DNA of 33,103 bases from Gammaproteobacteria bacterium (GCA_030589945.1 JAUUZN010000025.1:1-33103), one strand, 5' to 3'. Shown: positions 16,231 through 32,211, counted from the first letter of the stretch. The notes: generated from the sequence alone by a model not told the origin. Made by a program: numbers and translations.

Positions 16231-16257
16231 ACAAATTATAGGGCGTGGTGATCAATC

Positions 16258-16779: not shown

Positions 16780-17066
16780 TGGTCACTTATATGAATAATA
16801 AAATGATTAATGACAACCTAAGATCAATTCGAATGACGACCAAGGCTCTAGCTAAAATTGTCTTTTTACTATCCATCGTTGCTTTATCGGGCTGCTCTAC
16901 GATAAAACCATGGGTCAAACCCTATGAACGTCAAAACTTAGCTGACCCAATTATGGCAGCAAACAGAGACCCTGTTTCAAGTGCTTATTTACACCACGTA
17001 TATGAAGCTCGAGAAGGTTCAAGAGGTGCTGCTGGAAGTGGTGGTGGCGGCTGTGGGTGTAACTAG
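16779..17066 (+). CDS. DUF4266 domain small lipoprotein with Gly/Cys C-terminal tail
   Basis: A lipobox 'ALSGC' gives lipidated Cys39 if translation starts at 16779; an ATG at 16791 would shorten the N-region by four residues. The mature protein is only about 57 residues. It contains 'WVKPYERQNLADPIM' and 'HHVYEAREGSRGA', the DUF4266 signature, and ends in 'AGSGGGGCGCN'. The two Cys near the C-terminus, in a Gly-rich setting, look like a metal site, a disulfide pair or a site of modification. The gene is sandwiched between TlpA (one-base overlap) and DUF3570 (3-base gap), an arrangement known for this family. Function is not established. Confidence 0.88.
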   Translation: MVTYMNNKMINDNLRSIRMTTKALAKIVFLLSIVALSGCSTIKPWVKPYERQNLADPIMAANRDPVSSAYLHHVYEAREGSRGAAGSGGGGCGCN

Positions 17067-17069
17067 GTC

Positions 17070-18242
17070 ATGAACCGTAATCAATGGACAGGCAATCGCA
17101 ACTCTAGGACGGATTATCAATTCGTTTTTCTATTTCTCATTAGTTTAGTACAACTAAATAGTACTGTGAATGCAGGTGTGCTCCCTGAAGATAGAGCAGA
17201 TGCCCTTTATCATTCCTATGAAGGTGGTGGCGTTACCGTTGATGGCCCTTCCATATTGGTTCGAAAACGTGTACTCGAAGATTTTTCTGTCTCAGCAAAC
17301 TATTATGTCGATATGGTTTCCAGTGCTTCCATTGATGTGATAACCACAGCAAGTAAATACTCTGAGGAACGCACCCAAGTTTCTGTTGGTGTCGATTATC
17401 TAACGAACAACACAACTCTTTCTTTAAATTTTACCAATAGCAGTGAAAGTGACTACGAGTCAGATACCGCAACCTTCACCGTTAGCCAAGACTTTTTTTC
17501 AAATCTAACCACTCTCGCCATCGGATATAGTCATGGCTCAGATGTTGTAATGAAAAATGGTCAGGATGATTTTATTGAAGATGTCAGTCGACAGAATTTC
17601 CGAGTCGATCTCACTCAAATTATCAGTAAAAACTTTCTAATGACCTTAGCCGTTGAAGGGATCACAGACGATGGTTTTTTAAATAATCCATATCGCTCGG
17701 TTCGATTTTTAGATCCATCAGTGGCCCTTGGCTTCAGTTATCAACCCGAAGTTTATCCTGAGACAAAAACCAGTACCGCTGCAGCCTTAGCAGGCCGTTA
17801 TTTTTTACCTTATCGAGCAGCATTGCACGCAGAATATAGGACCTATACCGATACCTGGGGTGTTGCTGGTCAAAGTTTTGAACTGGGTTATATTCACCCC
17901 TTTGATGAGCATTTAACGCTAGAAATTACTGCCCGCACCTATAGTCAGGATCAGGCCGATTTTTATAATGATTTATTTCCCTTTCAAAATGCTCAAAACT
18001 TTCTTGCCAGAGACAAGGAATTAAGTACCTTTGATTCTAATTCTGTTGGCTTTGGGATCAGTTACGAGTTTAAACTAGACTCCACAGTGATCGATAGGCT
18101 TAGTCTCAATCTATTTTATAATTACTTTAAGTTCAGTTATGAAGATTTTAGAGACTTAAGAATTGTTACAACAGCCGGTGATGAGCCCTTCTATGAGCTT
18201 GATGCAACAGTGATCAGAGCTTTTGTGACAATAAGGTACTAA
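17070..18242 (+). CDS. DUF3570 outer-membrane beta-barrel protein
   Basis: The family is recognised by 'ADALYHSYEGGGVTVDGPSILVRKRVLEDFSVSANYYVDMVSSASIDVITTAS' near the N-terminus, the DUF3570 hallmark. After a signal peptide (to about residue 36, '...STVNAGV') the remaining 350 residues are alternating amphipathic strands ('QVSVGVDYL', 'TLSLNFTNSSESDYES', 'TLAIGYSHGSD'), as in a large outer-membrane barrel. The last residues 'VIRAFVTIRY' form a terminal aromatic strand. DUF3570 genes commonly follow DUF4266 genes. It is the last gene of the six-gene operon and is convergent with the GTPase-like gene at 18284, with a 41-base gap lacking an obvious terminator. Confidence 0.88.
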   Translation: MNRNQWTGNRNSRTDYQFVFLFLISLVQLNSTVNAGVLPEDRADALYHSYEGGGVTVDGPSILVRKRVLEDFSVSANYYVDMVSSASIDVITTASKYSEERTQVSVGVDYLTNNTTLSLNFTNSSESDYESDTATFTVSQDFFSNLTTLAIGYSHGSDVVMKNGQDDFIEDVSRQNFRVDLTQIISKNFLMTLAVEGITDDGFLNNPYRSVRFLDPSVALGFSYQPEVYPETKTSTAAALAGRYFLPYRAALHAEYRTYTDTWGVAGQSFELGYIHPFDEHLTLEITARTYSQDQADFYNDLFPFQNAQNFLARDKELSTFDSNSVGFGISYEFKLDSTVIDRLSLNLFYNYFKFSYEDFRDLRIVTTAGDEPFYELDATVIRAFVTIRY

Positions 18243-18283: not shown

Positions 18284-19573
18284 TTATTCATCACCTGAGG
18301 GACGTGCATACTGATCATTGAGTGTCGCAATAGACTGATCAACATTTTTAATGATTGCTTCAATTCTTTTGCGACTAAAACGATTCCAGCCCACAACATC
18401 AGGTCTAAAGATACTGTGTATAAATTGAGAGTTTTTCTTCAACGCTTTCTTTAATGACTCTTTAGCCTCACCTTCAGGTTCATATTCAAGATCATTTAAA
18501 ACCGATTTCATCGATGATCGTCTCATCCATGAATGGGTTAACAGTAACAATAAAAAAGCGACTGTCGCACTGGCTATGGAACTCCAAATATTTTCATTGG
18601 AATTTTGAATCCAAAACTGCAGCCACTGAGCTTTCTCTCCCGTCTTTTCAAACATTCCAGCAAACATTAAAGTAATAAACCCAGCTCCGCTGAGTAAGCC
18701 AAAGGCAACGGTATCTCGCCATAAAACGCCTCGTTCCCAAACACGTATAAGTTTACTGAGCTTGGGAATTGTATATTGTTCTATCTCGCGAGCGCGGTCG
18801 TGTAGATTACCAAGAATACGATACTGTCGGTCAATATAAATTTGTTGGATACGCTCTATAAGCTCTGGTGATTGAGCTTCTGATTGATTAGCAACGATGA
18901 CAAATTTGTTCACCTGTTTTTGGGAGTCATCAGAAGCAATCATCTGCTCTAAAGCTTCCCGATGCGGTAAATTTTCTTGCTGTTTGTCATCCACAAAGAC
19001 AATTACCAAGTCTGAGATGTTAATGATATGTTCGGTGATTTGTGTTTCACAGACCGATGTAGAATCAAAGCTAGGCGCGTTGATAAACAAATAACCTTGA
19101 ATGAGTGGGCTTGGACAGGTCAATAGCTGTAAACAGCTATTGACACTGGAACGATCCGTAGCGGATGTTTTCTCAATCTCGTTAGCCATTTGATAAAATG
19201 GGAGTCGTGCATCAGCATCTAAAGCAATACCTGGAAGTATTCTAGATTGCTCTCCGTTGGCGTAGCAAATAACTGTAAATTTTTCTGTATCATTGTTGTC
19301 TGAATTGTTGTCTGAATGAGTCACTGAAGAACCAAGGTAACTCTCCAGAAAGTTGTTTTTAGTTTCCGTGTCAGTCCCCACAATTGAAATCAATGGCCAC
19401 CAGGGAATTTGTGTTACATAGGATTCGTTCTTATCTAATAAACCAAGACGATAAGCCTCTCTGTCCAGTTGCTTAAAACCTTTAACAGCATCAACTAATA
19501 ATGGGCTTTCATTTCGTAAATGCCTTTCTAAGTTTTTCAAATGCTGTTTAACAATTTTTTGTGTACCAATCAT
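18284..19573 (-). CDS. Degenerate dynamin-like GTPase-fold membrane protein
   Basis: I do not recognise a named family. The order of elements suggests a GTPase fold: 'PLISIVGTDTETKNNFLESYLG' (residues 60-81) sits where a P-loop should be but lacks the G-K-S/T triad; 'YLFINAPSFDS' is at the position of switch II; 'LVIVFVDD' and 'FVIVANQSE' resemble the strands carrying the N-K-x-D base-recognition motif, with NQSE in its place. Two transmembrane helices follow at about residues 287-307 and 330-349, then a basic helical tail. The layout is like dynamin-related or stress-type GTPases anchored in the membrane, but the key nucleotide-binding residues are missing, so it may be inactive. It is the last gene of the ParA/TPR/coiled-coil run, 37 bases after the previous gene. 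Confidence 0.6.
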   Translation of the reverse strand: MIGTQKIVKQHLKNLERHLRNESPLLVDAVKGFKQLDREAYRLGLLDKNESYVTQIPWWPLISIVGTDTETKNNFLESYLGSSVTHSDNNSDNNDTEKFTVICYANGEQSRILPGIALDADARLPFYQMANEIEKTSATDRSSVNSCLQLLTCPSPLIQGYLFINAPSFDSTSVCETQITEHIINISDLVIVFVDDKQQENLPHREALEQMIASDDSQKQVNKFVIVANQSEAQSPELIERIQQIYIDRQYRILGNLHDRAREIEQYTIPKLSKLIRVWERGVLWRDTVAFGLLSGAGFITLMFAGMFEKTGEKAQWLQFWIQNSNENIWSSIASATVAFLLLLLTHSWMRRSSMKSVLNDLEYEPEGEAKESLKKALKKNSQFIHSIFRPDVVGWNRFSRKRIEAIIKNVDQSIATLNDQYARPSGDE

Positions 19574-19610
19574 ATGGACTTGCCTAACCTTTATTAGCTA
19601 ACGAACAACA

Positions 19611-20138
19611 CTACCATGGTATAAAACTATTCATAAAATTCATAGGTCTAGTCACACTGTTGTTCATGATAGACATATCATAGCGTATTTGCCCCATAGA
19701 ATTATTCATACTGCGTATATGGTAAACCATTTCATACATGTAGGTTGATTGAGTATTCATGGTTTTTGTTATGCTGCTCATATCGGTCGTTAATTGACCC
19801 ACATTGTTGGAAATAGTGTTCATATTATCAGCAACACGTCCAACATCGTTGGTCAGTGTATAGATGAGGAAAAAACCATAGGCCGCCAACAAGATAAATG
19901 CGAACATTGCCATATAGATGATAGACTCAACACGTTTCGAACCTGTAGAGAAGGTGTTTGATAATGATTCAAGGCTGACGGCTAACCGGTCAGCTAATTG
20001 AGTGACACCTTCCTCTCTTCTGTCAGTTCCTGTATAAGTTTCGGTCTTGATGACAGATTTAGCTTTGCGCCGCCCCGCCTTTGTGCCAGATCTTGCAGTT
20101 GATTCTGCTGGCTTAGCTTCTGCTTTTGATTTGTTCAT
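19611..20138 (-). CDS. Single-pass membrane coiled-coil protein
   Basis: The ATG at 20138 is chosen because it has an excellent AGAGGAAATT ribosome-binding site; an earlier ATG at 20162 lacks one. The product is 175 residues: a basic Ala/Lys-rich cytoplasmic N-terminus (1-45), a transmembrane helix at about 72-94, then a periplasmic helix in which Asn, Met, Thr and Ser dominate ('NMNTISNNVGQLTTDMSSITKTMNTQ'), with spacing like a methyl-accepting or coiled-coil segment. It ends in 'NFMNSFIPW'. No family recognised. Its place between the TPR protein and the GTPase-like protein suggests a scaffold role. The basic tail could contact DNA or a ParA partner; that is a guess. Confidence 0.78.
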   Translation of the reverse strand: MNKSKAEAKPAESTARSGTKAGRRKAKSVIKTETYTGTDRREEGVTQLADRLAVSLESLSNTFSTGSKRVESIIYMAMFAFILLAAYGFFLIYTLTNDVGRVADNMNTISNNVGQLTTDMSSITKTMNTQSTYMYEMVYHIRSMNNSMGQIRYDMSIMNNSVTRPMNFMNSFIPW

Positions 20139-20171
20139 AATTTCCTCTAGTTTAATACTCATTTTTAGCTG

Positions 20172-20202
20172 GCTACACAGTTTATAAACTAAGCTGTATA
20201 GC
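20172..20202 (-). other. Intergenic stem-loop between TPR and coiled-coil genes
   Basis: Arms GCTACACAG (20172-20180) and CTGTATAGC (20194-20202) pair over nine positions in the minus-strand RNA, with one U-G pair, around a 13-base loop. The loop overlaps a perfect 12-base palindrome AGTTTATAAACT (20179-20190). No T-run follows on the minus strand, so this is more likely an RNA-processing or regulatory hairpin than an intrinsic terminator. Confidence 0.45.
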
Positions 20203-20218
20203 GAAATTTTTCAATTGA

Positions 20219-21187
20219 CTAATGACTCTCTATTTGTCTCAGTAATTTATCTGCCGTGTTCTTATCTAAACCATGGATCACCCGATACAGATGATAGAGT
20301 TGCTCTCTTCTTCCTAGCTTAATCAGTTGCTGTGCAGCACTATAAAATGACTCACTCGCCTGCTGCCACTGACCCTTACTGAAGTAAATATTCCCCAGCT
20401 CTCCGTGTACATTTGGATCTTCAGGGTATAACTCAGTCAATTCTAAATAAAGTTGTATTGATAACTCGCCCTTTCCTATCTGATGAGCAAGCCGTGCTTG
20501 ATTTAATAGGTCAAAGTGAGAAACTGAAACAAGTTCAACATTTGATTGTGCTGCTATTATTGATTCCATAGCGTCCGTTGAATCGTTATCTTCAATTGAG
20601 ATGGCATCATCAATCATTGCAGTTATATCAGTTTCAACTATTTCTTGTTCTGAATTATTTGATAGAACCGCTTCTGTATTCTCCAATTTGATTGCAGAGC
20701 TTTGTTCCTCATTTATAGCGCTATCTTGATCCTGTTCAGGGCTTTCTGTGAGTTCAATTATCTCGTTATTACTCTCAGCAGTTTTATTCTCCGTGTGACT
20801 GTTCTCTATGGCACCAGTAGTGTCACTCTCTTCAGTACTTCCTTCAACCGAACTTTCCGAAGATTCTATCTCTGTTGCCGTTTCTGAATCATCCGTCATT
20901 TCCACAACTTCCGTCAAAACAATAGACTTATCTATTTCAGACTTATCTAATTTAGAATTAGCAACATCAGAAATTTCGATATCTTCTATAACTTCATCTT
21001 CAGTCTTTATTACTGTCCTAGATTTAGGTGTAACACCAACCCACTCTAGGATTGGATTAACCTGACCATCGATCTGAATATTGATCTGTTCAGTGAACAA
21101 TTTTGACCGATAATAATAAGCAAATCCTAATAAAATAATTAATAGAATTGCTAAGACGTGGCTTAGTAGATGGCGAATGACTTTCAT
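20219..21187 (-). CDS. Membrane-anchored TPR protein with acidic linker
   Basis: The ATG at 21187 is preferred over an in-frame TTG at 21193 because GAGG lies 7 bases before the ATG. The product is 322 residues. A transmembrane helix (about 8-26) is followed by a positively charged 'YYYRSKL'. Residues about 55-235 form a very acidic, Ser/Thr/Glu-rich stretch, probably disordered. Residues about 240-320 hold TPR-like helix pairs ('LLNQARLAHQIGKGELSIQLYLELTELYPEDPNVHGELGNIYFSKGQWQQASESFYSAAQQL'). The linker plus TPR would reach from the membrane into the periplasm or cytoplasm to bind a partner. The gene is 23 bases after the ParA gene and probably translated from the same mRNA. Confidence 0.85.
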   Translation of the reverse strand: MKVIRHLLSHVLAILLIILLGFAYYYRSKLFTEQINIQIDGQVNPILEWVGVTPKSRTVIKTEDEVIEDIEISDVANSKLDKSEIDKSIVLTEVVEMTDDSETATEIESSESSVEGSTEESDTTGAIENSHTENKTAESNNEIIELTESPEQDQDSAINEEQSSAIKLENTEAVLSNNSEQEIVETDITAMIDDAISIEDNDSTDAMESIIAAQSNVELVSVSHFDLLNQARLAHQIGKGELSIQLYLELTELYPEDPNVHGELGNIYFSKGQWQQASESFYSAAQQLIKLGRREQLYHLYRVIHGLDKNTADKLLRQIESH

Positions 21188-21210
21188 GTTCAAACCTCAA
21201 TAAAATTTGT

Positions 21211-21873
21211 TTACGATTTTGCTTTGATTTTAGGGAAAATAGCTTTAGCAAATGTCGAAAACTCTTCCACTGCCTTGCCTGATCTTGATAGTTCAAATAT
21301 ACCTAACCCTTCACTCAATGAATGACGGTAAATTGTTCTCTGGCATAATCTGTGAGGAATAAGTGTAATGTTAGGTAATTGTCCCAACAGTTCCTCTGTT
21401 TCATCGGACTCGGTGACTGCATAATGTGTATCTGCACGATTCACAAAGGTATAAAGCTTTGGTCCCTTTTTCTTGCCTCTAACAGTATCAACTATTTGCA
21501 AAAACCGTTGAGTCGCCCAGACATCAGGCTGACTAGGAGGCACAGGAATAATGACTTGATTGGCAACACTAATCGCTTTTTTCATCGCTTCCATATTGGA
21601 TGCACCCACATCGACGAGAACCTGTCCTGAATGACTCTGTAGGTGTTTAATTAAATTTCTCTTATTCTGATATGCAGTAATTGCTGGCTCGTATTCTTCC
21701 TCAGCTCTAATCTCAGCAAGATCGGATAGAGTGCCTTGAGGATCAAGATCATAAACCACGACGTCCTGTCCCATATTCAATAGCCAGAGCCCTAGATTAA
21801 AGGTTACTGTACTTTTGCCAGAGCCACCTTTTAAGTTGGCTATTACTGTAATATTTGGTTTTTTTGTGCTCAT
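21211..21873 (-). CDS. ParA/MinD-family ATPase, orphan
   Basis: A 220-residue deviant-Walker ATPase of the ParA/MipZ/McdA group. The Walker A motif is 'K15GGSGK20ST', with both the signature Lys15 and the catalytic Lys20. The A' motif is 'VVVYDLDPQGTL' with D42 and D44. 'VLVDVGASN' matches Walker B, where the usual Gly/Pro region is 'VGAS'. 'QVIIPVPPSQPDVWATQRFLQIV' is the conserved segment after it. Such proteins dimerise on ATP, bind the nucleoid or membrane and position cargo. No ParB gene or parS-like site is in the window, so chromosomal or plasmid partition is unlikely; cargo positioning is the better hypothesis. The downstream TPR gene begins 23 bases later; the upstream periplasmic-protein gene ends 9 bases before it. 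Confidence 0.93.
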   Translation of the reverse strand: MSTKKPNITVIANLKGGSGKSTVTFNLGLWLLNMGQDVVVYDLDPQGTLSDLAEIRAEEEYEPAITAYQNKRNLIKHLQSHSGQVLVDVGASNMEAMKKAISVANQVIIPVPPSQPDVWATQRFLQIVDTVRGKKKGPKLYTFVNRADTHYAVTESDETEELLGQLPNITLIPHRLCQRTIYRHSLSEGLGIFELSRSGKAVEEFSTFAKAIFPKIKAKS

Positions 21874-21882
21874 CTGTAAAGT

Positions 21883-22686
21883 CTACTGTCCTGGTTGAGA
21901 TTGATCATTAAAAGTACCTAAATACTGTTGTAGATCATTAACCTTATTAAAGTCTTTGGGTATTTTAAAAAGACTTGCGGGTTGCTTTTCTATTTTAATC
22001 ATACGTAATTCACGAACATAACCACCTTCGATTTCTTCCCGAGTGGTTATCTTTAATTCTGGGTCATACCATTGTAGTGAAGTGCGTATTGGACCTTCAG
22101 CTCCTGATACTTGCCAAAGCCATTTTTCACTTTGGCGACCATTAATTGTTTCATTTCCCTGAGGTATTAATTCAGAAATAGTGCCATTGGGTAGAAATTC
22201 TCTAACGATCATTCGTCGTTCAACATCTATCCAGTGTAAGGAACGAAATTTTTGGTCATCAGCCAAAACGGTGAATTCCCATTTTTCAGCTGACCGACCG
22301 AATATTGTTTCTAGCCCAAGTAATAAGCAACTAGTATTTTCTAAACCATCACAAGGTTTCGTTGTTTCTGTTACTTCAACGGCTGGTGGGTCTGGGTGAT
22401 TGGTTTTCACTTCCATGTAAACTTTATGTTCAGGAACTAGGAAAAGTCTAACATTGTCTTTGGTTCTAACGATTTCAATGACATCAACATTATTTAATAT
22501 TGAGTCTGTACGAACACTATCTTTACCAATATACATCTGTGATCGATAATCTGGTTTTTCGGGTGCTTTTTGAATAGCAGTTGCAGAAAACTCTAAAGCA
22601 GCGTCTGCTGCTACCTGAGTTCCAGATGCTGGCTCATTAACTACAAAATTGAGTGATATGAATAAGCATATCGATATATAACGCAT
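21883..22686 (-). CDS. Periplasmic LolA/DUF4412-like protein
   Basis: A signal peptide occupies about residues 1-24. The mature protein is a series of beta strands: 'YRSQMYIGKDSVRTD', 'VRLFLVPEHKVYMEV', 'GRSAEKWEFTVLADDQ...LHWIDVERRMIVREFLPNG', then a second similar unit 'INGRQSEKWLWQVSG...LQWYDPELKITTREEIEGG', ending in 'PASLFKIPKDFNKV'. This pattern (a modified substrate protein line 'lWiD.e..ivre' and terminal 'F.iP..f') is typical of the LolA-like/DUF4412 periplasmic fold, and two internal repeats are visible. The start has AGGA 7 bases before ATG. It lies just downstream of the globule-like gene, beyond a strong hairpin. It could act as a carrier for a hydrophobic ligand or lipid; that is inferred. 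Confidence 0.72.
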   Translation of the reverse strand: MRYISICLFISLNFVVNEPASGTQVAADAALEFSATAIQKAPEKPDYRSQMYIGKDSVRTDSILNNVDVIEIVRTKDNVRLFLVPEHKVYMEVKTNHPDPPAVEVTETTKPCDGLENTSCLLLGLETIFGRSAEKWEFTVLADDQKFRSLHWIDVERRMIVREFLPNGTISELIPQGNETINGRQSEKWLWQVSGAEGPIRTSLQWYDPELKITTREEIEGGYVRELRMIKIEKQPASLFKIPKDFNKVNDLQQYLGTFNDQSQPGQ

Positions 22687-22730
22687 TTAATTATCCTGTT
22701 TTCTCAATTCTGTATAAAGGTTTATGGGAG

Positions 22731-22762
22731 TTGGTTGCACACTTCCCTGTGTTAGCAACCAA
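22731..22762 (-). other. Strong stem-loop after the Gly/Asn-rich gene
   Basis: TTGGTTGC (22731-22738) pairs with GCAACCAA (22755-22762), and ACAC (22739-22742) pairs with GTGT (22749-22752), with a two-base bulge and a six-base loop. It lies about 10 bases downstream of the stop of the repeat-protein gene on the minus strand. No T-run follows, so it is probably an mRNA-stabilising or processing hairpin, or a leaky terminator, between that gene and the LolA-like gene. Confidence 0.6.
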
Positions 22763-22772
22763 TTATCTTCTT

Positions 22773-23495
22773 CTACTTGGTGGTATCTACCGGTGGAGCT
22801 GGAGGAGGACCATAGGGACCATAGTTCGGATTAAACTGGCCATTATAACCGTTTCCATTTCCGTAACCATTGCCATTTCCGTAACCATTGCCATAGCCGT
22901 TTCCGTTTCCGTAACCATTGCCATAGCCGTTACCATTTCCGTAACCATTGCCATAGCCATTACCGTTTCCGTAACCATTGCCATAGGCATTACCGTTACC
23001 ATTGCCACGACCTGAGCTGCGCATGCTGAAATCCATGTCACCTACCATGTCTCCAAACATATCGCCAAAGCCATTGCCGTTGCCCCAGCCACTGCCATTG
23101 CCATTGCCATTGCCCCAGCCACTTCCATTGCCCCAGCCATTTCCATTACCGTTGCCCCAGCCATTGCCGTTGCCCCAGCCATTTCCATTACCGTTGCTCC
23201 AGCCATTGCCATTGCCATTGCCGTTGTTCCAACCATTGTTACCCCAAGGCATCATATTCCAAGGACCATTGTTCCCAGAATTATTCCATGGACCATTGTT
23301 CCAAGAATTATTATTCCAAGGACCATTGTTCCCAGAATTATTCCATGGACCATTGTTCCAAGAATTATTATTCCAAGGACCATTGTTCCAAGGTCCATTG
23401 TTCATTGGACCCCAGCCTGCAAATGTTGATTGCACAGGTAAAATAGTAACAGTTGCTAAAGCAGCAATGATGAACAGTTTTTTTAACTTAATCAT
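22773..23495 (-). CDS. Gly/Asn/Tyr/Trp-rich repeat protein, sulfur globule protein-like
   Basis: A secreted structural protein of 240 residues. A clear signal peptide ends at 'QSTFA26|GWGP'. Residues about 30-80 are repeats of 'NNGPWNNNSWNNGPWNNSG' type; 85-140 are G/N/W repeats ('NGNGWGNGNG'); about 143-160 read 'FGDMFGDMVGDMDFSMRSSG', a more ordered block; 165-222 are repeats of 'NGYGNGNGYG'; the tail is Pro-rich. The ordered Asp/Met block followed by a Gly-Tyr repeat tail resembles my recollection of the sulfur globule protein family of sulfur bacteria (CV1/SgpA type), which coats periplasmic sulfur globules; I could not check this by alignment. AAGGAG lies 6 bases before the ATG. Flanking hairpins suggest its mRNA is separately regulated. 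It could instead be another low-complexity surface protein. Confidence 0.75.
   Translation of the reverse strand: MIKLKKLFIIAALATVTILPVQSTFAGWGPMNNGPWNNGPWNNNSWNNGPWNNSGNNGPWNNNSWNNGPWNNSGNNGPWNMMPWGNNGWNNGNGNGNGWSNGNGNGWGNGNGWGNGNGNGWGNGSGWGNGNGNGSGWGNGNGFGDMFGDMVGDMDFSMRSSGRGNGNGNAYGNGYGNGNGYGNGYGNGNGYGNGYGNGNGYGNGYGNGNGYGNGNGYNGQFNPNYGPYGPPPAPPVDTTK
22857..23000. repeat. 30-bp coding tandem repeat (Gly-Tyr-Asn units)
   Basis: A 30-base unit with core TTTCCGTAACCATTGCCAT repeats about four to five times, with a few silent changes between copies, and encodes ten-residue NGYGNGNGYG units on the minus strand. It makes up the C-terminal repeat tail of the globule-like protein. Confidence 0.85.
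23261..23374. repeat. 57-bp identical tandem duplication in coding sequence
   Basis: Two adjacent 57-base copies (23261-23317 and 23318-23374) are identical by eye and encode 19-residue Asn/Gly/Pro/Trp units near the N-terminus of the globule-like protein. Identity at every base points to a recent duplication or ongoing homogenisation. Confidence 0.88.
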
Positions 23496-23571
23496 CTTAA
23501 ATCTCCTTGCTTACTGACTTATCATTCGGCATAAACCGCATGCCACGTCCACTCTAAAATTAAAAAACGAT

Positions 23572-23601
23572 ATAACGATTGTAGAGTGAAACAATCGTTA
23601 T
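23572..23601 (-). terminator. Candidate intrinsic terminator or attenuator
   Basis: ATAACGATTG (23572-23581) and CAATCGTTAT (23592-23601) are perfect inverted repeats of 10 bases with a 10-base loop. On the minus strand the hairpin is followed by ATCGTTTTTTAA, so a run of six T starts four bases after the stem. It lies between the Pro/Met-rich protein gene (stop at 23678) and the start of the globule-like gene (23495). The stem is AT-rich, so termination is probably partial. The globule-like gene may then have its own promoter downstream of it. Confidence 0.6.
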
Positions 23602-23677
23602 GACGTACAAACTAGTTAATAACTATATCTAGACATTAACTTTTCTTGTTCGCTTTGCCCGGTTTAAATCAAACGTT

Positions 23678-24259
23678 TTACCAGGGTGTAAACATTGGAT
23701 TCCACATACCCATAAACCCAGGAACTGCAAAGGGAAATCCGCCCATGGGTAAAGATCCTAATGGTGAAAAAGGTGTTCCGATCATTGGGTATGCGCCAAA
23801 TGGAGCACCATACATGCCGGGCATTGAGTTGCTGACAGGATATGGTGAAAAATTTGGTTGATAACCTGGGTAACCCAGCATTGGATGCTGCACCTGTTGA
23901 CTAATATTTTGCAACTGAGTCGCTCTATACGGATTTCCGTATGCATAGGCAGCTCCGCTATTAAAAGAACCTCTCATAGGCTGTGCTTGCCGAGGAGCCG
24001 CTAATGTATAAAATAGATCGTGCTCTGATACTTCTTTTGGCAAGTCAGGAGCGTCCACTGGATCGCGTTCTCGAGAAGGATATTTACCTGATTTTTGATG
24101 GATTGCAGAACTCCACCTATTTGGCCAATGATCAGTTGAATAACTCACTTTAGATTCTGAAGCACCGGCAAGCACTGTACTCGTCGATGAGATTGATACC
24201 ATCAACAAGAGTGCAGTCGTTAATTGCAGGTAAAGAAATCTCATTTTGTTGTCATTCAT
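23678..24259 (-). CDS. Secreted Pro/Met/Phe-rich protein, unknown function
   Basis: The ATG at 24259 is chosen: AAGGG lies about 7 bases upstream, whereas an in-frame TTG at 24289 would overlap the upstream gene. The product is 193 residues. A signal peptide (about residues 6-33) ends near 'TVLAGASES'. The first mature part is polar ('YSTDHWPNRWSSAIHQKSGKYPSRERDPVDAPDLPKE'). The C-terminal 70 residues are low complexity, rich in Pro, Met, Gly, Phe and Tyr ('PMLGYPGYQPNFSPYPVSNSMPG', 'FGAYPMIGTPFSPLG'), ending in 'MWNPMFTPW'. No family recognised. Its position between two other low-complexity secreted proteins suggests a shared structure. The ending resembles that of the coiled-coil protein at 19611. 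Confidence 0.75.
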   Translation of the reverse strand: MNDNKMRFLYLQLTTALLLMVSISSTSTVLAGASESKVSYSTDHWPNRWSSAIHQKSGKYPSRERDPVDAPDLPKEVSEHDLFYTLAAPRQAQPMRGSFNSGAAYAYGNPYRATQLQNISQQVQHPMLGYPGYQPNFSPYPVSNSMPGMYGAPFGAYPMIGTPFSPLGSLPMGGFPFAVPGFMGMWNPMFTPW

Positions 24260-24282
24260 GATTAGACCCTTATACAATTTTT

Positions 24283-25290
24283 TTACCAACGACGCTGTCG
24301 GTTAAACCAGGGAGGAGGATATGCACCTTGGTTCGGATTATTAAAACCAAATCCTAAAGCTTTTGGTTGTATATTCCGTGGCTGAGGTTGATTCGACTGC
24401 ATCCTGTTAAAATAGTCTTGACGTCTTCTTTCGTTGATCGCCATCTGCTCTTGCCAACGCTTTTTCGCGGCCTGCTGACGTTGTTGCATTTGTTGCATGA
24501 ACTGAGCATGATCAGGCTGGTTCATATTGGGGCCATTCATTCCCTGTTGATTCATATTTGGGCCGTTGAATTGAGGTGGAGCCCACTGTTGATTGTGCCT
24601 CTTCGACATTTGCTCCTGCCAGCGTCTTTGCGCATCCTGTTGGCGTTGCATCATCTGTTGTTGCTGCTGTTGCATATGTTGACGATAGCTCTCTTGATTA
24701 GCTTGAGATGGTCCACCTTGTGGCATTTGTTCTTGCCAATATTTCTGAGCTTGCTGTCGGCGTTTTTCCATTTCTAACTGATATTCATTTTGAGAATTTG
24801 GACCGTTACGATTTTGTTGTGGCTGCTGAGTTTGCTGAGCATTTTGACGTTGTGCCATCTGTTCTTGCCAGTATTTCTGTGCTGCCTGTTGACGTTTTTC
24901 CATATCAGTTTGAAATGACTGTCGCGCCTTCTCAGACTGTTGTTGGCGCTGCTTCAAAGCAGCCTGCTGTTTCTGCTGCCACTGATGTCTGGCAGATTTA
25001 CGGCTTTCTTGCTCTTTCTGCCAACGCTCTTGCCACTTTTTCTGAGCAGCGACTTGTTGTTGGCGCATTGATTCTTGATAATCACGCCATTGTTTTTGCA
25101 TCACTTGACGTTCAGCATTCTGAGGTACGTTAACATTCGAGCCATAGGACTGCTCTGAATCTGCTACGGTACTGTAAGGACCTGCAGGTGGTGTAGCAAT
25201 ATTAGCCTGAGCGAATAAATATCCACCAGTCCAGCCTATTACTAGCAATGCAACACTGCCCAATACTTTGAAAGAAAATAACCTATTCAT
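24283..25290 (-). CDS. Gln-rich WQEQM-repeat protein with N-terminal anchor
   Basis: A 335-residue protein: N-terminal hydrophobic segment (about residues 8-27, 'VLGSVALLVIGWTGGYLFA') that is a signal peptide or anchor, then a long Gln/Arg/Lys/Trp-rich stretch. The motif W-Q-E-Q-M occurs four times and W-Q-E-R-W once, each preceded by a 'RQQAAQKY/KR' helix. This implies a repeated amphipathic helix, probably an extended coiled coil. Asn/Pro/Gly-rich breaks separate the later repeats. The tail 'LGFGFNNPNQGAYPPPWFNRQRRW' is aromatic and Pro-rich, like that of the neighbouring secreted protein. No known family. It is 60 bases after the RND permease gene and 23 before the next gene, so it is likely co-transcribed. 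Confidence 0.75.
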   Translation of the reverse strand: MNRLFSFKVLGSVALLVIGWTGGYLFAQANIATPPAGPYSTVADSEQSYGSNVNVPQNAERQVMQKQWRDYQESMRQQQVAAQKKWQERWQKEQESRKSARHQWQQKQQAALKQRQQQSEKARQSFQTDMEKRQQAAQKYWQEQMAQRQNAQQTQQPQQNRNGPNSQNEYQLEMEKRRQQAQKYWQEQMPQGGPSQANQESYRQHMQQQQQQMMQRQQDAQRRWQEQMSKRHNQQWAPPQFNGPNMNQQGMNGPNMNQPDHAQFMQQMQQRQQAAKKRWQEQMAINERRRQDYFNRMQSNQPQPRNIQPKALGFGFNNPNQGAYPPPWFNRQRRW

Positions 25291-25350
25291 AACTCTTGTC
25301 CTCAGTTGACGTTTGTATGATTAATCTTACTCTGTTTTTTACTTCAGTCG

Positions 25351-28300
25351 TTAAATCTTCTTCAGGCTAATGCCTCTTCTTTTCTTACCTTTAGTTTTCT
25401 TGCTTTTGGGCTCATCTTTTTGAGTCTGCTGAGCCTTAGATTTTTTTATTACTGTTTTAGTCGTTTTACGCTTCCGTTTTGGAGCACTACTTGTTGATTT
25501 AACAGGAGCCTTTGAAACCTTTTTACTCGAAGCTTTCTTCGCAGTAACTTTTTTAGTAGGAGAAGCTTTAGCTTCTTTCTTAGTGATAGTCTTATTAACA
25601 ACTACACTAGTCTCATCTTTGCTTTCGTTGTTTACTTCTTCTGCAGGAACTGTCTTCTCTGATTTTTTCTTTGAAGAAAGTATTTTTGAAGCGTTATCAC
25701 CACCTTTTTGAAAAGCCGTGAAATAGCTTTTGAAGAAGTGAAACATGAAGGTTCCAGCAAATTGCATAACCTGGATAATTACTTTCCATAGAGGGAGCTT
25801 ATCTTTCTTTGGTTCTGGATCATTATCGTCATCATCTGATGGATTTCCGGCATTAACTCCACACAACTCGTAAAAGGTTGCACGATAAGAAATACATCCC
25901 AATGGGATAGCTACCAATGTCAGTATCGTAGAAACCAATGTGCCAAAGAATAGACTGGTTGCCATACCAATAAAGATTGGATCAGAAAATAGCATTGCCG
26001 CACCAACCATCAATGTCCCTGCTGTAATTAAGATGGGGCGCATTCTGATCTGACCAGCGGTTATTACCGCATCTTGAATATCCTTACCCGATTCAACTTC
26101 ATGCATGACAAACTCCACCAAGAGTATGGAGTTTCTGACAATGATCCCCGCGAGGGCGATAAACCCTATCATTGAAGTTGCAGTGAAGTCAGCACCGATG
26201 ATCAGATGACCTGGTATAATACCAATTAAAGTCAAAGGAATCGGTGCCATGATGAGTCCGGCTAAACTGAAGTTTTTAAATTCCCAAACAATCAACCCAT
26301 AAATGAGCAACAATGCCGCCATAAAGGCACCGCCCATATCTCTGAATGTTTCAAAGGTGACTGTCCACTCACCGGTCCATTCAAATCCGGATTTCACATC
26401 ATCTTCAGGAGCACCGTAGCGACCAATGGTGCCGCCTAACGTTAATGCCGTCATGGTTACACCGTCTGGTGTTACATAATCCTTGAGTGTATTTTCAACA
26501 CTGTGCATGCCATAAATAGGAGCGCCCAACATACCTTCCATTTCAGCGGTCACGTATTCAACCGGTCGTAAATCCTTGTGAAAAATAATGGGATCTTCAA
26601 TCACCTGTTCAAAACGACCTAACTCGCCAAGGGGTATAGTCGAGCCATTCTTAGACATGACAGGAATGGTGTACAGACGTTTTATTTGTGAACGTACCGC
26701 CATGGGTACTTGCATTACAATGTAGGTAGGTTCTCGTACTACACCCTGTTTAATATCGCCCAAGACGTAGCCACCCACAGCCATATTCATCTGTTGGTTA
26801 ATGGTATCAACCGATACTCCATAACGCGTAGATTTTTCAATATCGACTACAAATCGCCAGTACTTGTTTTCAGTGGCCATGTAATTATCCACATCGACCA
26901 TATCTTTAGTACTTTCAAAAATTTGAGTCATGTCCCGAGCAACCTGGCGACGAGTATTTGCATCGGGTCCATAGATTTCAGCAACAATGGTCGATAACAC
27001 AGGGGGCCCAGGAGGCATTTCAACAACTTGAGTTTTAACGCCCGTGGCAACAATCTCAGGATGCTTTAACATAAAATCTTTTATTCTATGGCGAGCGTCT
27101 ACAGCAATGTCATGACTACCCCTGTCCCTTTCCGTTTTATCAGTCAGCATCACTTGAATATCGGCATCCCACGGGTTCTGTCTTAAATAGTAATGACGGA
27201 CCATGCCGTTAAAATTAAAGGGAGATGCGGTACCTGAATAACTTTGTAATATTGTCACCTCAGGAATGACACGTAATACATTCACCAGTTGATGCGTTAC
27301 ATTAGCGGTAACCGGCAAAGCAGTTCCTTCAGGCATGTTGATAACAACATTGAATTCAGGCTTGTTATCAAATGGCAACATTTTTACCGCAACCCACTGA
27401 AAGTAAAACATGCTACAGGCAAAGAATGTGAGGCCGACAAGACCGGCCATAAAACCGTTTCTAAGCACAGCACTATGGCAGAGTTTATTCATCGCAGGAC
27501 GATAAAAGTTACCAATCACTTCCTCGAACCACTTTTCACGTTTTTCAGCTTTTTCAAGTGCTTCTAACTCTGGTCTCACCCGCATAGCAAACCAGGGCGC
27601 AAAAACAAATGCAGCAATTAGTGAGAAGAACATTGCAGCCGAACCAAGCACAGGGATGGGACGCATGTACGGCCCCATCAATCCACTGACCACACCCATG
27701 GGTAAGAGTGCAGAGATAATTGTTAGGGTAGCAAGTATGGTTGGATTTCCAACCTCTCGAACGGCATCAATTGCCACTTCTACAGTAGTCTTTCCAGCCT
27801 GTAACCAACGTCTGAATATATTTTCAACAACCACAGTAGCATCGTCTACTAAAATACCAATTGAAAATACCAGTGCGAATAAACTCACTCGGTCAATGGT
27901 GTAGTCGAGGATCAAAGCGGCCCAAATTGTTACCAAAATAACAATCGGGATAATCACCATAATGACCGATGCAGCACGTAATCCCATAAAGATTAGACAA
28001 AGAAAACTCACCGCCAATGCTGCTTCAAACAATGACATCAATAATTCATTGACCTTATCATTTGCTGTCTTTCCGTAGTTACGTGTTATTTCAACATGGA
28101 CATTATCGGGAATAATGTAACCTTTCAGCGACTCTAATTTGTTGATGATTGAATCAGCAATTTCAACACCATTAGTATCAATCTTCTTTGCAATAGCAAT
28201 GGTAACAGCCGCTTCGCCATTTGCCGCATTGGGATTTTCACTGGACGCTCCAGTGTAGAAACTGACAATATTCTTAGTTTCTTCCGCCGCTTTAAACACT

Positions 28301-29142
28301 TCGGCAACATCTCTTACATAAACCGGAGCGCCACCATGAACACCAATAACCAGCTGAGCAATTTCTTCAGCTGAGGTTAAAAAGGCGCCACTGTATACCT
28401 TAAACGATCGGTTGTTACCTTCAATATAGCCAATATCTTGTTCCGAATTCGCTGAACGAATGGTCTCGGCAACCTGAGCAAGAGAAATATCAAACCCGCT
28501 TAATCTTTCAGGTGAAACTTCAATTCTAATTTGATCGGATCTACCACCAACGATGGAGCTCTTACCTGTATTTGGTAGCGCCTTAAGATGCTGCAGTACA
28601 TCTAAAGCTAGCGTCCGTAATGTACCGTCATCAACCCCACCATCTTCAGGATTAGACCAAAAGGTAACCGATAAAATTGGGACATCATCAATTCCCACAG
28701 GCTTAATTAGCGGCAAAGAGACGCCTGGAGGAATAATATCGACATTAGATTGCATCTTATCGTGAACTTTCACAATTGACGAACCGAGTTCCTCACCTAC
28801 CTTAAATTGAACAGTGACCACCGCTGAACCACGCTGAGTAGCAGAGTACACATGGCGTATTCCCGGGATCTCACTGAGTAAACGCTCAAGTGGTTCGGTG
28901 AGTAGGCTAGTGACCTGCTCTACATTTGCTCCAGGATATTGTACAAAAATGTCGACCATGGGAACCGAAATTTTTGGGTCTTCTTGGCGCGGAGTCATCA
29001 TCAAACCCATGACGCCGAGAGCCAAAAATGCAAACATTAATAAAGGGGTTACGGGAGAATTAATAAATTGTTTGGCGATACCGCCAGCGATACCTAAGCT
29101 AACCTGATGATCAATTTCGTTATTATTGTTATCTGTCATCAT
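25351..29142 (-). CDS. RND efflux transporter permease with Lys-rich C-terminal tail
   Basis: An inner-membrane proton-driven RND permease of the AcrB/VexF type. The core is about 1094 residues; family members are usually 1000-1050. Visible: N-terminal cytoplasmic start and TM1, porter-domain block 'VFVQYPGANVEQVTSLLTEPLE'-like sequence ('VDIFVQYPGANVEQV'), TM4 'GILVDDATVVVEN' with D433 and D434 of the proton relay, and TM10 'IVRNSILLVEF' where Arg1003 replaces the AcrB Lys940. Residues 1095-1263 are an extra tail: 'PSDDDDNDPEPKKDK', a short amphipathic or membrane helix ('WKVIIQVMQFAGTFMFHFF'), then about 107 residues with roughly 33 Lys, plus Ala, Ser, Thr and Pro, like histone H1. Both RND termini face the cytoplasm. 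The adaptor gene lies 36 bases upstream. No outer-membrane channel gene is present in the window. Confidence 0.93.
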   Translation of the reverse strand: MMTDNNNNEIDHQVSLGIAGGIAKQFINSPVTPLLMFAFLALGVMGLMMTPRQEDPKISVPMVDIFVQYPGANVEQVTSLLTEPLERLLSEIPGIRHVYSATQRGSAVVTVQFKVGEELGSSIVKVHDKMQSNVDIIPPGVSLPLIKPVGIDDVPILSVTFWSNPEDGGVDDGTLRTLALDVLQHLKALPNTGKSSIVGGRSDQIRIEVSPERLSGFDISLAQVAETIRSANSEQDIGYIEGNNRSFKVYSGAFLTSAEEIAQLVIGVHGGAPVYVRDVAEVFKAAEETKNIVSFYTGASSENPNAANGEAAVTIAIAKKIDTNGVEIADSIINKLESLKGYIIPDNVHVEITRNYGKTANDKVNELLMSLFEAALAVSFLCLIFMGLRAASVIMVIIPIVILVTIWAALILDYTIDRVSLFALVFSIGILVDDATVVVENIFRRWLQAGKTTVEVAIDAVREVGNPTILATLTIISALLPMGVVSGLMGPYMRPIPVLGSAAMFFSLIAAFVFAPWFAMRVRPELEALEKAEKREKWFEEVIGNFYRPAMNKLCHSAVLRNGFMAGLVGLTFFACSMFYFQWVAVKMLPFDNKPEFNVVINMPEGTALPVTANVTHQLVNVLRVIPEVTILQSYSGTASPFNFNGMVRHYYLRQNPWDADIQVMLTDKTERDRGSHDIAVDARHRIKDFMLKHPEIVATGVKTQVVEMPPGPPVLSTIVAEIYGPDANTRRQVARDMTQIFESTKDMVDVDNYMATENKYWRFVVDIEKSTRYGVSVDTINQQMNMAVGGYVLGDIKQGVVREPTYIVMQVPMAVRSQIKRLYTIPVMSKNGSTIPLGELGRFEQVIEDPIIFHKDLRPVEYVTAEMEGMLGAPIYGMHSVENTLKDYVTPDGVTMTALTLGGTIGRYGAPEDDVKSGFEWTGEWTVTFETFRDMGGAFMAALLLIYGLIVWEFKNFSLAGLIMAPIPLTLIGIIPGHLIIGADFTATSMIGFIALAGIIVRNSILLVEFVMHEVESGKDIQDAVITAGQIRMRPILITAGTLMVGAAMLFSDPIFIGMATSLFFGTLVSTILTLVAIPLGCISYRATFYELCGVNAGNPSDDDDNDPEPKKDKLPLWKVIIQVMQFAGTFMFHFFKSYFTAFQKGGDNASKILSSKKKSEKTVPAEEVNNESKDETSVVVNKTITKKEAKASPTKKVTAKKASSKKVSKAPVKSTSSAPKRKRKTTKTVIKKSKAQQTQKDEPKSKKTKGKKRRGISLKKI

Positions 29143-29178
29143 TAATCTCTTATTAAATCGTCTATTGTCTGAGTTAGA

Positions 29179-30390
29179 TTAATTAGAATTAGAACCGACT
29201 TCACGATTCCAACCTGAGATTATTCCGGGTGACGGATTTATCAGGACCTGCTCTCCAGGATTTAAACCTGCAAGAATGGTAATGGTTCCTTCGGCATAAC
29301 TTGCCCCCAATCGAACAAGCCGTAACTCACGGCGGTTATTTTTAATCACATAAACAATGGGCAAACTGCCTCGTTTAATTACGGCACTTGAGGGGACCTC
29401 AATGAGCACCTCGTCATCTTCACCCGTATCAGGAAGCATGACTTCCGCATAGGTTCCGGGCCAAGCAGTGATTCCTACTGGTAGATCAAATTTAACAGTG
29501 ATGGTGTGACGTTTTGCATTTCCTATGGGGTAAATCTGCGCTAAGCGAACATCGACATATTGATTGTTAAAATCTAGCATCGCCGGAATTACCATGCCTT
29601 CATGAACGACTGAAATGAGTCTTGAGGGAACATCGACAGAAAGTTGAAGATTTCCAAGATCAGCGAATTTTAATAAGGGCTGACCCACTTGGACGGTATC
29701 TCCCGCTTCGACTAATTTTTCAACAATGACCCCATTAAATGTTGAGATGGTCCGAGTGTCCCTAATTCTAGCATCAACCTCACGTAATTTGGCGAGTGCA
29801 GCATTGTGCTGACCTTGGGCTTGACCCATTTGAGTGCCGGATGAGTAAAGATCTGAATATCGATCTAACCAAGGATTGCCCATACCCATGGAACTAGCAA
29901 TATTTTTGGTGAAGATTTGATCAAACATCGAAGGCATGCCCATGCCAGGCATTTTGTTGATGCTTTTTGATTGGGGTGACCACATTTCACGGCCGTACTG
30001 CATTTGAGAATTACGAAGACTTAAATACGAATTACTCAATTCTGCCAATACTTGAGCTCTTTTAGCAGACAACTCGTCAGTATCAAGAGCTACTAATACA
30101 TGGTTCTGCTCAAACTGATCACCTTCTCGGCCTGCGATAAACTCGACTCGTCCAGAGGTTTCTGCAGCAAATACTACTTCACGATAAGGAACAACACTGG
30201 CACTGAGGATATTAGAAATGCCTGTGCGTCTCTGACCCACGGTCACCGTTTGCCCCTGGTATCCACCATTATTTCCGTTGTTTGAATTATTATAAGAATT
30301 GTCGTAAGAAGTGCTTGATGATGCTTGAACTCCAGCCGTCATCGAAATTGATAACCCGAGTAAGAATAAACCCTGTGCTTTAATATTCAT
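29179..30390 (-). CDS. RND efflux periplasmic adaptor (MFP) with unusual insert
   Basis: A membrane fusion protein of 403 residues: signal peptide to about residue 23, a Ser/Asn/Gly/Tyr-rich stretch (about 24-48), a lipoyl/barrel-sandwich half ('AAETSGRVEFIAGREGDQFEQNHVLVALD'), a short hairpin domain, the second lipoyl half ('STFNGVIVEKLVEAGDTVQVGQPLLKFADLGNL'), then beta-barrel and membrane-proximal domains. Between residues about 134 and 187 is a Met/Pro/Gly/Trp-containing insert ('NKMPGMGMPSMFDQIF', 'GMGNPWLDRYSD') in the hairpin. The insert and N-terminal stretch echo the low-complexity composition of the secreted proteins in this locus. It would bridge the permease to an outer-membrane channel or to another partner. 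First gene of the run; the promoter is in 30391-30849. Confidence 0.9.
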   Translation of the reverse strand: MNIKAQGLFLLGLSISMTAGVQASSSTSYDNSYNNSNNGNNGGYQGQTVTVGQRRTGISNILSASVVPYREVVFAAETSGRVEFIAGREGDQFEQNHVLVALDTDELSAKRAQVLAELSNSYLSLRNSQMQYGREMWSPQSKSINKMPGMGMPSMFDQIFTKNIASSMGMGNPWLDRYSDLYSSGTQMGQAQGQHNAALAKLREVDARIRDTRTISTFNGVIVEKLVEAGDTVQVGQPLLKFADLGNLQLSVDVPSRLISVVHEGMVIPAMLDFNNQYVDVRLAQIYPIGNAKRHTITVKFDLPVGITAWPGTYAEVMLPDTGEDDEVLIEVPSSAVIKRGSLPIVYVIKNNRRELRLVRLGASYAEGTITILAGLNPGEQVLINPSPGIISGWNREVGSNSN

Positions 30391-30849
30391 ACTTGCCCCA
30401 TGTCGGTAGGATAAAATCCATTTAATACATAGATTTAATGAGTAATTTGATCCAACTATTTTTATTCACAACCATTGTTATACCCGTCATTGAAGCATAT
30501 AACAATCAGATCTTATAAAAGAGATGTCAATTCGAAACCATCATCTAAATATTTTGCTAATTAATTAAGTTTTAGACGTTGCAACCGTAAAATAAACAAC
30601 GCTAGCCATATGCAAAGACAGATAACTTAACCAGTTGATTTAACAACACTTTGTAAATTAACATGTTGCAATGCGTTGCACTTTAAATACTGGTTGCTGA
30701 CGCCCTATTTAATTGATTTTTAAAGACTTTGTTTGCAATATAGTTGCAAGTGCTGGCGTTGCATCAACATGAATATTGTGCAACACTAATTCACGGCAAA
30801 CTACCCACTTTTGGTAACCAATAATAAATTTTTGGGAAAAATATTTGAA
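30391..30849. promoter_or_regulatory. Divergent regulatory region with TTGCA/TGCAA box cluster
   Basis: This 459-base gap separates the RND operon from its probable regulator. The stretch 30391-30577 is AT-rich and I see nothing definite in it. From 30578 to 30784 seven TTGCA/TGCAA boxes occur: the palindrome GTTGCAAC at 30578-30585; TTGCAA at 30666-30671 facing TTGCA at 30676-30680; TTGCAA at 30733-30738 and 30744-30749, spaced 11 bases apart (one helical turn); GTTGCA at 30758-30763; and TGCAAC at 30779-30784. They probably form operators for the divergent Fis-type activator. No full sigma-54 promoter (GG at -24 paired with GC at -12) could be matched around these boxes on either strand. 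Confidence 0.65.
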
Positions 30850-32211
30850 ATGAAAAATAGTAAAGATGATTTAAACGATATTGATTCATTATTTCCAATG
30901 TTAGATGCCGTTATAAGTGTCATTGACGAAGGCGTTATCATCAGTGATAAAAAAGGTAATGTACTGTTTAATAATCCGTCAGTGATTAAATTGCTCGATC
31001 TTAAGCCAGGTAAGAAACTAACAAAATTACAACAGATTGGTGATCTAAATTTGCAACGAGAATTACTCAAACAATCGACCGACTGTCATGGTTATGATGA
31101 AACCTGTATGCCTTTGGGTGAATTCATCACATTTGATACTAAAATACTGCAGAATGACGGAATTCGATACATTGAATTTCACTCGGGCATTGTGAAATGC
31201 CAAATTAATGATAAGGATGTGCGCCTCATCCTCATTAGAGACAAGACCGAACAACGTATTTTAGAAGCAGCCTATAAAACAAAGTACACGGATATCATCA
31301 GTAACGATCCAAAGATGCTAGAGGTCGTTGAGAAGGTACATACTGTTGCAGCAAGCCATGCATCGGTGCTTGTGCAGGGAGAATCGGGAACCGGCAAAAC
31401 ACTTATCGCGAGCATGGTACATCAACTCAGTAGTCGTAGCTCTCAACCGTTTATAGAGGTTAATTGTGCAGCGATTCCTGAAGCCCTATTTGAATCTGAG
31501 CTATTTGGACATACAAAGGGTGCTGTATCTGGAGCTTCATCTGAGCAACAGGGACGAATTCAAGCCGCAAATAATGGCACATTGTTTCTTGATGAGGTGA
31601 GTGAGATACCCCTTCAACTTCAGACTAAGTTACTGCGCGCCATTCAAGAGCAAGAATATGTGATGGTAGGTTCAGATAAAACAATGAAGGTAAATGTTCG
31701 GATCATTTCAGCCTCTAATCAAAATATTCGTAAACTGGTTGATCAGGGCAAGTTTAGAGCTGATCTTTATTATCGGTTAGCCGTGATTCCACTAATTATA
31801 CCGCCACTCCGACATCGTCCAGGAGATATTCCTTTATTAACCAAACATTTTTGTGAACGACTAGTTGCCCGTGGTTACCCAACGGATGTGGAAGTTGACC
31901 CCCTGGCATTTAAGATGATGATGGACTATCCATGGCCGGGCAATGTCAGAGAGTTAGAAAATGCGGTTGAACATGGAGTCCTATGTGCTGTAGATAAAAC
32001 AATATTGGCTGAGAGTTTACCCCATGACATCACTCAAAAGATGTCTTCTACTATCACCAAAGATCGTACAAAAAGTACCCGACTTATTCAGAGTCATGAA
32101 ATTAATTCTGCTTTGGCACTCGCAAAAGGCTCTAAGTCAGAAGCAGCAAAAATAATTGGTATTGATAGGACAACTCTTTGGCGACGGATGCAGAAACTGG
32201 GGATAGATTAA
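30850..32211 (+). CDS. Sigma-54 interaction-domain transcriptional regulator (PAS-AAA-Fis)
   Basis: The ATG at 30850 is preferred; an in-frame TTG at 30811 lacks a ribosome-binding site, though the ATG site is also weak. The product is 453 residues: an N-terminal PAS-like sensor (about residues 10-135, 'LDAVISVIDEGVIISDKKGNVLFNNPSV'), a central AAA+ domain with Walker A 'G177ESGTGKT', 'ELFGHTKGAVSGA' at 217-229, Walker B 'GTLFLDEVSEI', sensor and R-finger region 'FRADLYYRLAVIPL', and a C-terminal Fis-type helix-turn-helix ('AAKIIGIDRTTLWRRMQKLG'). There is no receiver domain. The GAFTGA loop reads GAVSGA, so contact with sigma-54 may be altered or lost. It is divergent from the RND operon and is its likely regulator. 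Confidence 0.92.
   Translation: MKNSKDDLNDIDSLFPMLDAVISVIDEGVIISDKKGNVLFNNPSVIKLLDLKPGKKLTKLQQIGDLNLQRELLKQSTDCHGYDETCMPLGEFITFDTKILQNDGIRYIEFHSGIVKCQINDKDVRLILIRDKTEQRILEAAYKTKYTDIISNDPKMLEVVEKVHTVAASHASVLVQGESGTGKTLIASMVHQLSSRSSQPFIEVNCAAIPEALFESELFGHTKGAVSGASSEQQGRIQAANNGTLFLDEVSEIPLQLQTKLLRAIQEQEYVMVGSDKTMKVNVRIISASNQNIRKLVDQGKFRADLYYRLAVIPLIIPPLRHRPGDIPLLTKHFCERLVARGYPTDVEVDPLAFKMMMDYPWPGNVRELENAVEHGVLCAVDKTILAESLPHDITQKMSSTITKDRTKSTRLIQSHEINSALALAKGSKSEAAKIIGIDRTTLWRRMQKLGID

Follow-up and report, generated by a model that had tools for sequence, protein, structure and literature searches.

A conserved gammaproteobacterial gene block joins a sulfur globule coat protein homologue, an RND pump and a ParA-family ATPase

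Ten minus-strand genes in a 33,103-nucleotide stretch of gammaproteobacterial DNA (hereafter, the window) form a block whose order recurs in dozens of genomes, and we consider it somewhat probable (roughly 0.58) that this block is one functional unit with which Dsr-type sulfur oxidizers make and place periplasmic sulfur globules. Based on gene content and genomic distribution, the locus very probably serves sulfur globule biology. Each part comes from a known family, and the block as a unit is apparently undescribed; a literature search for the gene set (sulfur globules in connection with any of RND, ParA, LolA, sigma-54 and sterol carrier), whose coverage stopped short of subscription journals, returned neither a description of the block nor an experiment on it.

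Gene content and conservation of the block

The window genome is a 3.27-Mb draft that is 92% complete. A first-pass annotation had reported ten genes with short gaps at 18284-30390, and we found all ten minus-strand ORFs there, separated by short gaps or overlapping. Family searches backed the labels it had given to the products: adaptor (PF16576), permease (PF00873), SGP-like, DUF4412/LolA-like, ParA, TPR, coiled coil and, with a weak match, Dynamin_N. The features of the locus are as follows.

30811..32211, plus strand: sigma-54 type activator (PAS-like N-terminus, AAA+, Fis HTH), divergent from the block, with GAVSGA for GAFTGA
30391..30810, minus strand: divergent intergenic region, where relatives carry a -24/-12 promoter (TGGCAC-N5-TTGC)
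29179..30390, minus strand: RND periplasmic adaptor (MFP), with a Met-rich stretch in the hairpin region
25351..29142, minus strand: RND permease of a distinct subfamily (52-80% identity within it, ~45% to other RNDs)
25354..25893, minus strand: basic C-terminal permease tail, residues 1084-1263, outside every solved RND structure
25360..25380, minus strand: terminal motif RRGISLK of the permease, proposed ParA-docking peptide
24283..25290, minus strand: Gln-rich helical-repeat protein with an N-terminal signal/anchor and the family motif PPxGPYR[ST]
23678..24289, minus strand: Pro/Gly/Met-rich secreted protein, with family marks YSxDxWPxRW and a W-terminated tail
23572..23601, minus strand: terminator-like hairpin and U tract in the gap that separates the Pro/Met-rich and SGP genes
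22773..23495, minus strand: sulfur globule coat protein homologue (SGP family), Gly/Asn/Tyr-rich
21883..22686, minus strand: LolA-superfamily-like periplasmic protein (DUF4412)
21211..21873, minus strand: ParA-family ATPase with intact Walker A, KGGSGKS (NF041546, 7.6e-41)
20219..21193, minus strand: membrane-anchored protein with a long acidic linker and C-terminal TPR (probable ATG at 21187)
19611..20162, minus strand: single-TM coiled-coil protein ending MNxSVxRPMxFMNxFxPW
18284..19573, minus strand: dynamin-like GTPase with a C-terminal hydrophobic hairpin, P-loop lost (weak Dynamin_N match)

With the RND permease as query, a scan of 84,980 species genomes yielded 56 loci at 52-80% identity, all of them in uncultured MAGs and mostly gammaproteobacterial; block order was then compared by translated searches and family HMMs. 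In relatives, the order begins with the divergent sigma-54 activator, an SCP2-like gene, the adaptor, the permease, and the Gln/Pro-rich and Pro/Gly-rich genes, and it continues with SGP, LolA-like, ParA, TPR, coiled coil and GTPase, often followed by a Pro-rich membrane protein and then a DUF302 protein. The divergent activator is thereby part of the unit in relatives. The window block lacks the SCP2-fold gene that precedes the adaptor in relatives, as well as the Pro-rich membrane protein and the DUF302 protein that follow their GTPase.

Among 21 distinct loci of the close tier, each with at least 8 kb downstream, SGP, LolA-like and TPR genes were found in all 21, ParA in 20, the coiled coil in 19, the Gln-rich gene in 15 and the GTPase in 13. 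In the distant tier (59 loci), ParA was retained in 38, the coiled coil in 34, the GTPase in 33 and SGP in 11. The expectation that the genes co-occur as a block was thus borne out, with colinearity across many gammaproteobacterial families; we did not find them independent of one another in unrelated contexts. By this comparison, the ten-gene locus is a conserved colinear unit, beyond chance adjacency.

Two features lie beyond the block's GTPase end, on the plus strand. A convergent unit at 14711-18242, which encodes two small beta-barrel-like proteins, a TlpA-like thioredoxin, DUF4266 and DUF3570, is outside the block in relatives. At 11955-14693, a 912-residue protein matches the hydrazine synthase alpha middle domain and PD40 repeats.

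A coat protein homologue and two further low-complexity families

The three consecutive low-complexity genes noted in the first-pass annotation are present; rather than fillers, they represent three distinct conserved families. The window SGP scored 25.7 bits against PF17228, just below the cut-off of 26.7, and homologues at the same position pass that cut-off (30.1 bits in locus L060, 56 bits in genome G174). Using an SGP HMM made from three sequences outside the block (Allochromatium vinosum SgpA, SgpB and one further SGP), we obtained 78.9 bits for the window protein, against 36.7 for the best of 500 shuffles; all 14 block SGPs tested outscored all 500 shuffles. A match by composition only is ruled out by these shuffles, and, judged by the HMM, the window Gly/Asn/Tyr-rich protein is genuinely homologous to A. 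vinosum SgpA and SgpB, whose role as globule coat proteins is known from experiment.

The shared core reads DMFGDMVGDMDFSMRSSGRG in the window and DMFGDGYGDFNMSMSGGGRG in SgpB. Like A. vinosum SgpA and SgpB (PF17228), the block SGP has a signal peptide, an AWWGP-type mature start and a Pro/Ala end, and they have in common a GD-x-[FM]-[ND]-[FM]-[SN]-M-type motif, after which come GRG and GY-rich repeats; the Sec signal peptide of the window SGP was read from the sequence and is conserved in the alignment. The coat gene lies inside the block here, whereas the A. vinosum sgp genes lie apart from the pump and ParA genes. The window genome also contains a second SGP-like gene with duplicated repeat halves (G000:C96:2321-2905, L176).

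Based on their fixed motifs, the Gln-rich and Pro/Met-rich proteins are classed as separate families, for which homology to known Sgp proteins is not claimed. In A. vinosum, SgpD (Alvin_2515) is the most abundant globule protein and is encoded beside an RND exporter; its make-up, with Gln-rich helical repeats and spaced prolines, is like that of the window Gln-rich protein (PMC10386293). The Gln-rich family model did not match SgpD, and the resemblance is one of make-up. The RND neighbor of SgpD was rejected as an orthologue of the block pump, as it belongs to another subfamily (254 bits vs 1752 for the block RND).

The hairpin before the SGP gene suggests separate transcription of the coat gene, or transcription at a different level. 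A sigma-54 site ahead of the SGP gene scored weakly above shuffles and is not claimed.

Association with sulfur oxidation

The first-pass annotation had proposed to look for dsr genes in carriers. We detected dsrA above cut-off in 33 of 45 locus-bearing genomes, with fragments in 2 more, and the window genome itself encodes dsrA (contig C116). In a class sample of 370 evenly drawn gammaproteobacterial genomes, 80 carry the permease subfamily; dsrA was present in 68 of these 80 carriers and in 56 of 290 non-carriers (odds ratio 23.7, Fisher p 1.8e-27, with kinship ignored). This strong enrichment comes with exceptions on both sides, namely 56 dsrA-positive genomes without the pump subfamily and 12 carriers without dsrA. 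According to these counts, the block goes with reverse-Dsr sulfur oxidation, and most of its carriers are bacteria that burn sulfur from their own stores. None of 50 genomes of the sample was phototrophic.

Within the family that includes A. vinosum, the pump was found in 188 of 210 genomes; the A. vinosum genome among them was recognized in part by its sgpD terminator, a 23-base sequence known from publication. A. vinosum, the sulfur globule model, has a cut-down block in which the coiled coil, ParA, LolA-like, RND and adaptor genes follow in order (read up to the adaptor); its sgp genes are elsewhere in the genome, and the RND beside sgpD is a different one. Many Chromatiaceae blocks likewise lack an in-block sgp gene. 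We rejected Alvin_1739, annotated as a cobyrinic acid synthase and strongly regulated in a transcriptome, as the block ParA, because the annotations of Alvin_1737-1741 pair such genes with "dinitrogenase cofactor" genes in a Mrp/NifX-type cluster.

Predicted structures of the putative carriers would fit a hydrophobic cargo. The LolA-like protein (model pLDDT 87) matched the LolA/LprG/RseB superfamily in Foldseek with E-values down to 4e-7, but its TM-scores are low (~0.3) and it has a longer two-part sheet. The SCP2-like protein of relatives (model pLDDT 93) matched sterol carrier protein 2 with an E-value of 5.8e-7 and a TM-score of 0.74. With carriers of SCP2 and LolA type on both sides of an RND that lacks an outer channel, a hydrophobic ligand may be exchanged across the inner membrane or along it; lipid and polysulfane sulfur would be the candidate ligands.

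In other systems, proteins with SCP2 and LolA-type folds carry lipids, and the pump and carriers could instead traffic envelope lipids, with ParA and the pump serving membrane organization (e.g. of intracytoplasmic membranes) and the globule genes sharing the locus. The 12 carriers without dsrA and the many Chromatiaceae blocks without an in-block sgp gene fit that reading; nevertheless, we regard it as unlikely, given that all 21 close loci have their SGP gene within the block, that the dsrA association is strong and that the low-complexity secreted families occur with the block.

The pump and its C-terminal tail

The permease subfamily is sharply set apart, as its members score at least 1066 bits and other RNDs at most 910 in the class sample. 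Its nearest solved relatives are multidrug RND pumps; the 12-TM core is common to TriC, MexK and MdtB, with which residues 30-1084 of the block permease align, whereas the block pump has in addition a long basic tail, fixed partners and a locus without an outer-membrane channel. Of a tripartite RND system, the permease and the adaptor are present in the window block. The earlier observation that no outer-membrane channel gene is present holds for the window block, and no recurring block family in relatives is a channel.

Generic RNDs scoring ~900 bits (L143-L147) were rejected as block members, having no block nearby, and tail-less second RND copies (L091, L122, L151, L156, L160 and others) were set aside as paralogues outside the block and served as motif-negative controls. 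Second copies of the subfamily without the motif and without block partners were observed at L151, L152, L156, L160, L164, L167, L080, L091 and L122.

The permease tail comprises roughly 200 residues. It varies in all but its richness in Lys and Arg and its end, where an almost invariant motif stands, K-R-R-G-I-[RKS]-L-[KN] (in short form, [R/K]GIxLK). Each of the 75 ParA-linked tails examined contains the pattern [RK]G[IV]x[LI], with its first residue 6-27 residues from the C-terminus; in shuffled tails, a similar motif appeared in 5 of 3750. For comparison with ParA, we used 91 loci with at least 6 kb downstream and scored ParA near the locus: RG[IV]x[LI] was present in 65 of 66 ParA-positive loci and in 6 of 25 ParA-negative loci. 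The single ParA-positive locus without it, L111, has KGIRLK instead. Locus L099, whose tail is frameshifted with the motif in the next frame, was scored as positive; the frameshift (genome G195, near 8420; RRGIKLK in the next frame) is probably an assembly or sequence error.

The motif is absent, with no ParA nearby and other block parts kept, in L013, L114, L137, three f96 loci and two f114 loci; L123, the sister of L137, has both motif and ParA. Exceptions are L086 and L101, in which the motif is present with no ParA nearby. On the permease tree, 5-6 of 8 independent pairs show motif and ParA changing in step, and almost none shows them changing in opposite directions; by sign test, this is borderline (median p 0.06, and 0.03 for the reverse direction). 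By these comparisons, the tail motif is mostly lost where ParA is lost.

The Walker A of the block ParA is kept throughout, with KGGxGKS in 85 of 85 block ParAs. Activators of ParA/MinD ATPases have the general form of a short basic peptide grafted onto a cargo-binding protein (PMC7993993). Because motif and ParA co-occur and short basic peptides are usual in ParA activators, we propose the pump as the ParA partner and the [R/K]GIxLK tail end as a ParA-docking peptide. The McdA-McdB, ParA-ParB and PomZ-PomX systems share with the block a deviant Walker A ParA ATPase, and they have a partner that combines a short basic peptide with a cargo-binding part (PMC7993993), for which the RND tail motif is the block candidate. 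In contrast to those systems, the proposed partner would be an integral-membrane RND pump and the cargo would be periplasmic; moreover, known ParA activators use N-terminal peptides, whereas the peptide in the pump tail is C-terminal.

The side of the membrane on which the tail lies bears on this proposal. In many tails, the motif is preceded by a hydrophobic stretch (19-mer hydropathy of at least 1.6 in 50 of 75 tails), possibly a thirteenth TM helix. Were this stretch to span the membrane, the tail would end up in the periplasm, out of reach of ParA. The motif is also kept in eight tails that lack a clear stretch of this kind, which argues for a cytosolic tail.

The tails are Lys/Arg-rich in the manner of histone H1, and one could suppose that they bind DNA nonspecifically while the ParA of a sulfur-linked block partitions other cargo, such as a cytosolic Dsr complex. 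A precise motif, which goes beyond charge, is kept 6-27 residues from the C-terminus and tends to disappear along with ParA, which makes this improbable in our judgment. We hold it very improbable that the locus is an ordinary drug or metal efflux operon with unrelated neighbors, to which the multidrug RNDs as nearest solved relatives and the Met-rich stretch of the adaptor might point, since there is no outer-membrane channel, non-efflux partners are kept across many families, dsrA is associated with the pump, and the conserved block order across relatives contradicts it. That independent genes are neighbors by chance is refuted by the colinear block in many genomes and retains next to no probability.

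GTPase, sigma-54 control and local decay in the window genome

The first-pass annotation had described the last gene of the block as a degenerate GTPase. This is correct for the window, where the P-loop is lost, but it is not a trait of the block: the P-loop is intact in 55 of 56 homologues, the window copy is the only broken one, and the degeneracy is specific to the window genome. A stand-alone GTPase homologue with an intact P-loop occurs outside such a block in a genome of the window's order (L005 of G089, 14956-16518).

In 44 of 47 loci compared, the gap that separates the activator from the block contains, on the block strand, a -24/-12 promoter that deviates at no more than one position; the rate in shuffles is 0.3%. 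We found no sigma-54 promoter at 30391-30810 in the window, where the best site has three mismatches, a chance-level match. GAFTGA is present in most activators of relatives; the window activator reads GAVSGA. The window genome has thus lost both the promoter and the GAFTGA loop of its sigma-54 control, together with the SCP2-like gene and the P-loop of the GTPase. Its sister locus L007 is also without SCP2 and has GAFTDA in its activator. As the window block is otherwise open and intact, control seems to have been rewired or relaxed in this lineage, and, given the lost sigma-54 site, SCP2 gene and P-loop, the window copy of the block may work differently.

Proposed role of the block and significance

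In the reading that we prefer, of a unit for making and placing globules, the RND pump and adaptor, acting without an outer channel, would shuttle a hydrophobic ligand, either envelope lipid or polysulfane sulfur, between two carriers, the SCP2-fold protein of the cytosol (in blocks that have one) and the LolA-like protein of the periplasm. The SGP and the two other low-complexity secreted proteins would coat the growing globule, the TPR and coiled-coil proteins would link the coat to the inner membrane, and the dynamin-like GTPase would shape or organize the inner-membrane patch at the coat. Nucleoid-bound ParA would bind the [R/K]GIxLK tail of the pump, which as ParA cargo adaptor would space the assembly sites. 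More tentatively, and at somewhat less than even odds, we suggest that nucleoid ParA reaches a periplasmic organelle through the RND tail, such that the pump would be a ParB-like adaptor that spaces globules and passes them on, while also feeding or draining the globule with hydrophobic material.

The literature searched contained no globule assembly or positioning factor beyond the Sgp coat proteins, and a 2025 review of organelle positioning leaves sulfur unmentioned (PMC13052382). The block would provide a first testable gene set, defined in A. vinosum, for building and placing sulfur granules; gene deletion by conjugation is established in that organism (PMC10386293). The pump, with its [R/K]GIxLK tail, is a candidate ParA partner of a new type. 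If this is true, ParA positioning would extend from cytosolic cargo to cargo across a membrane.
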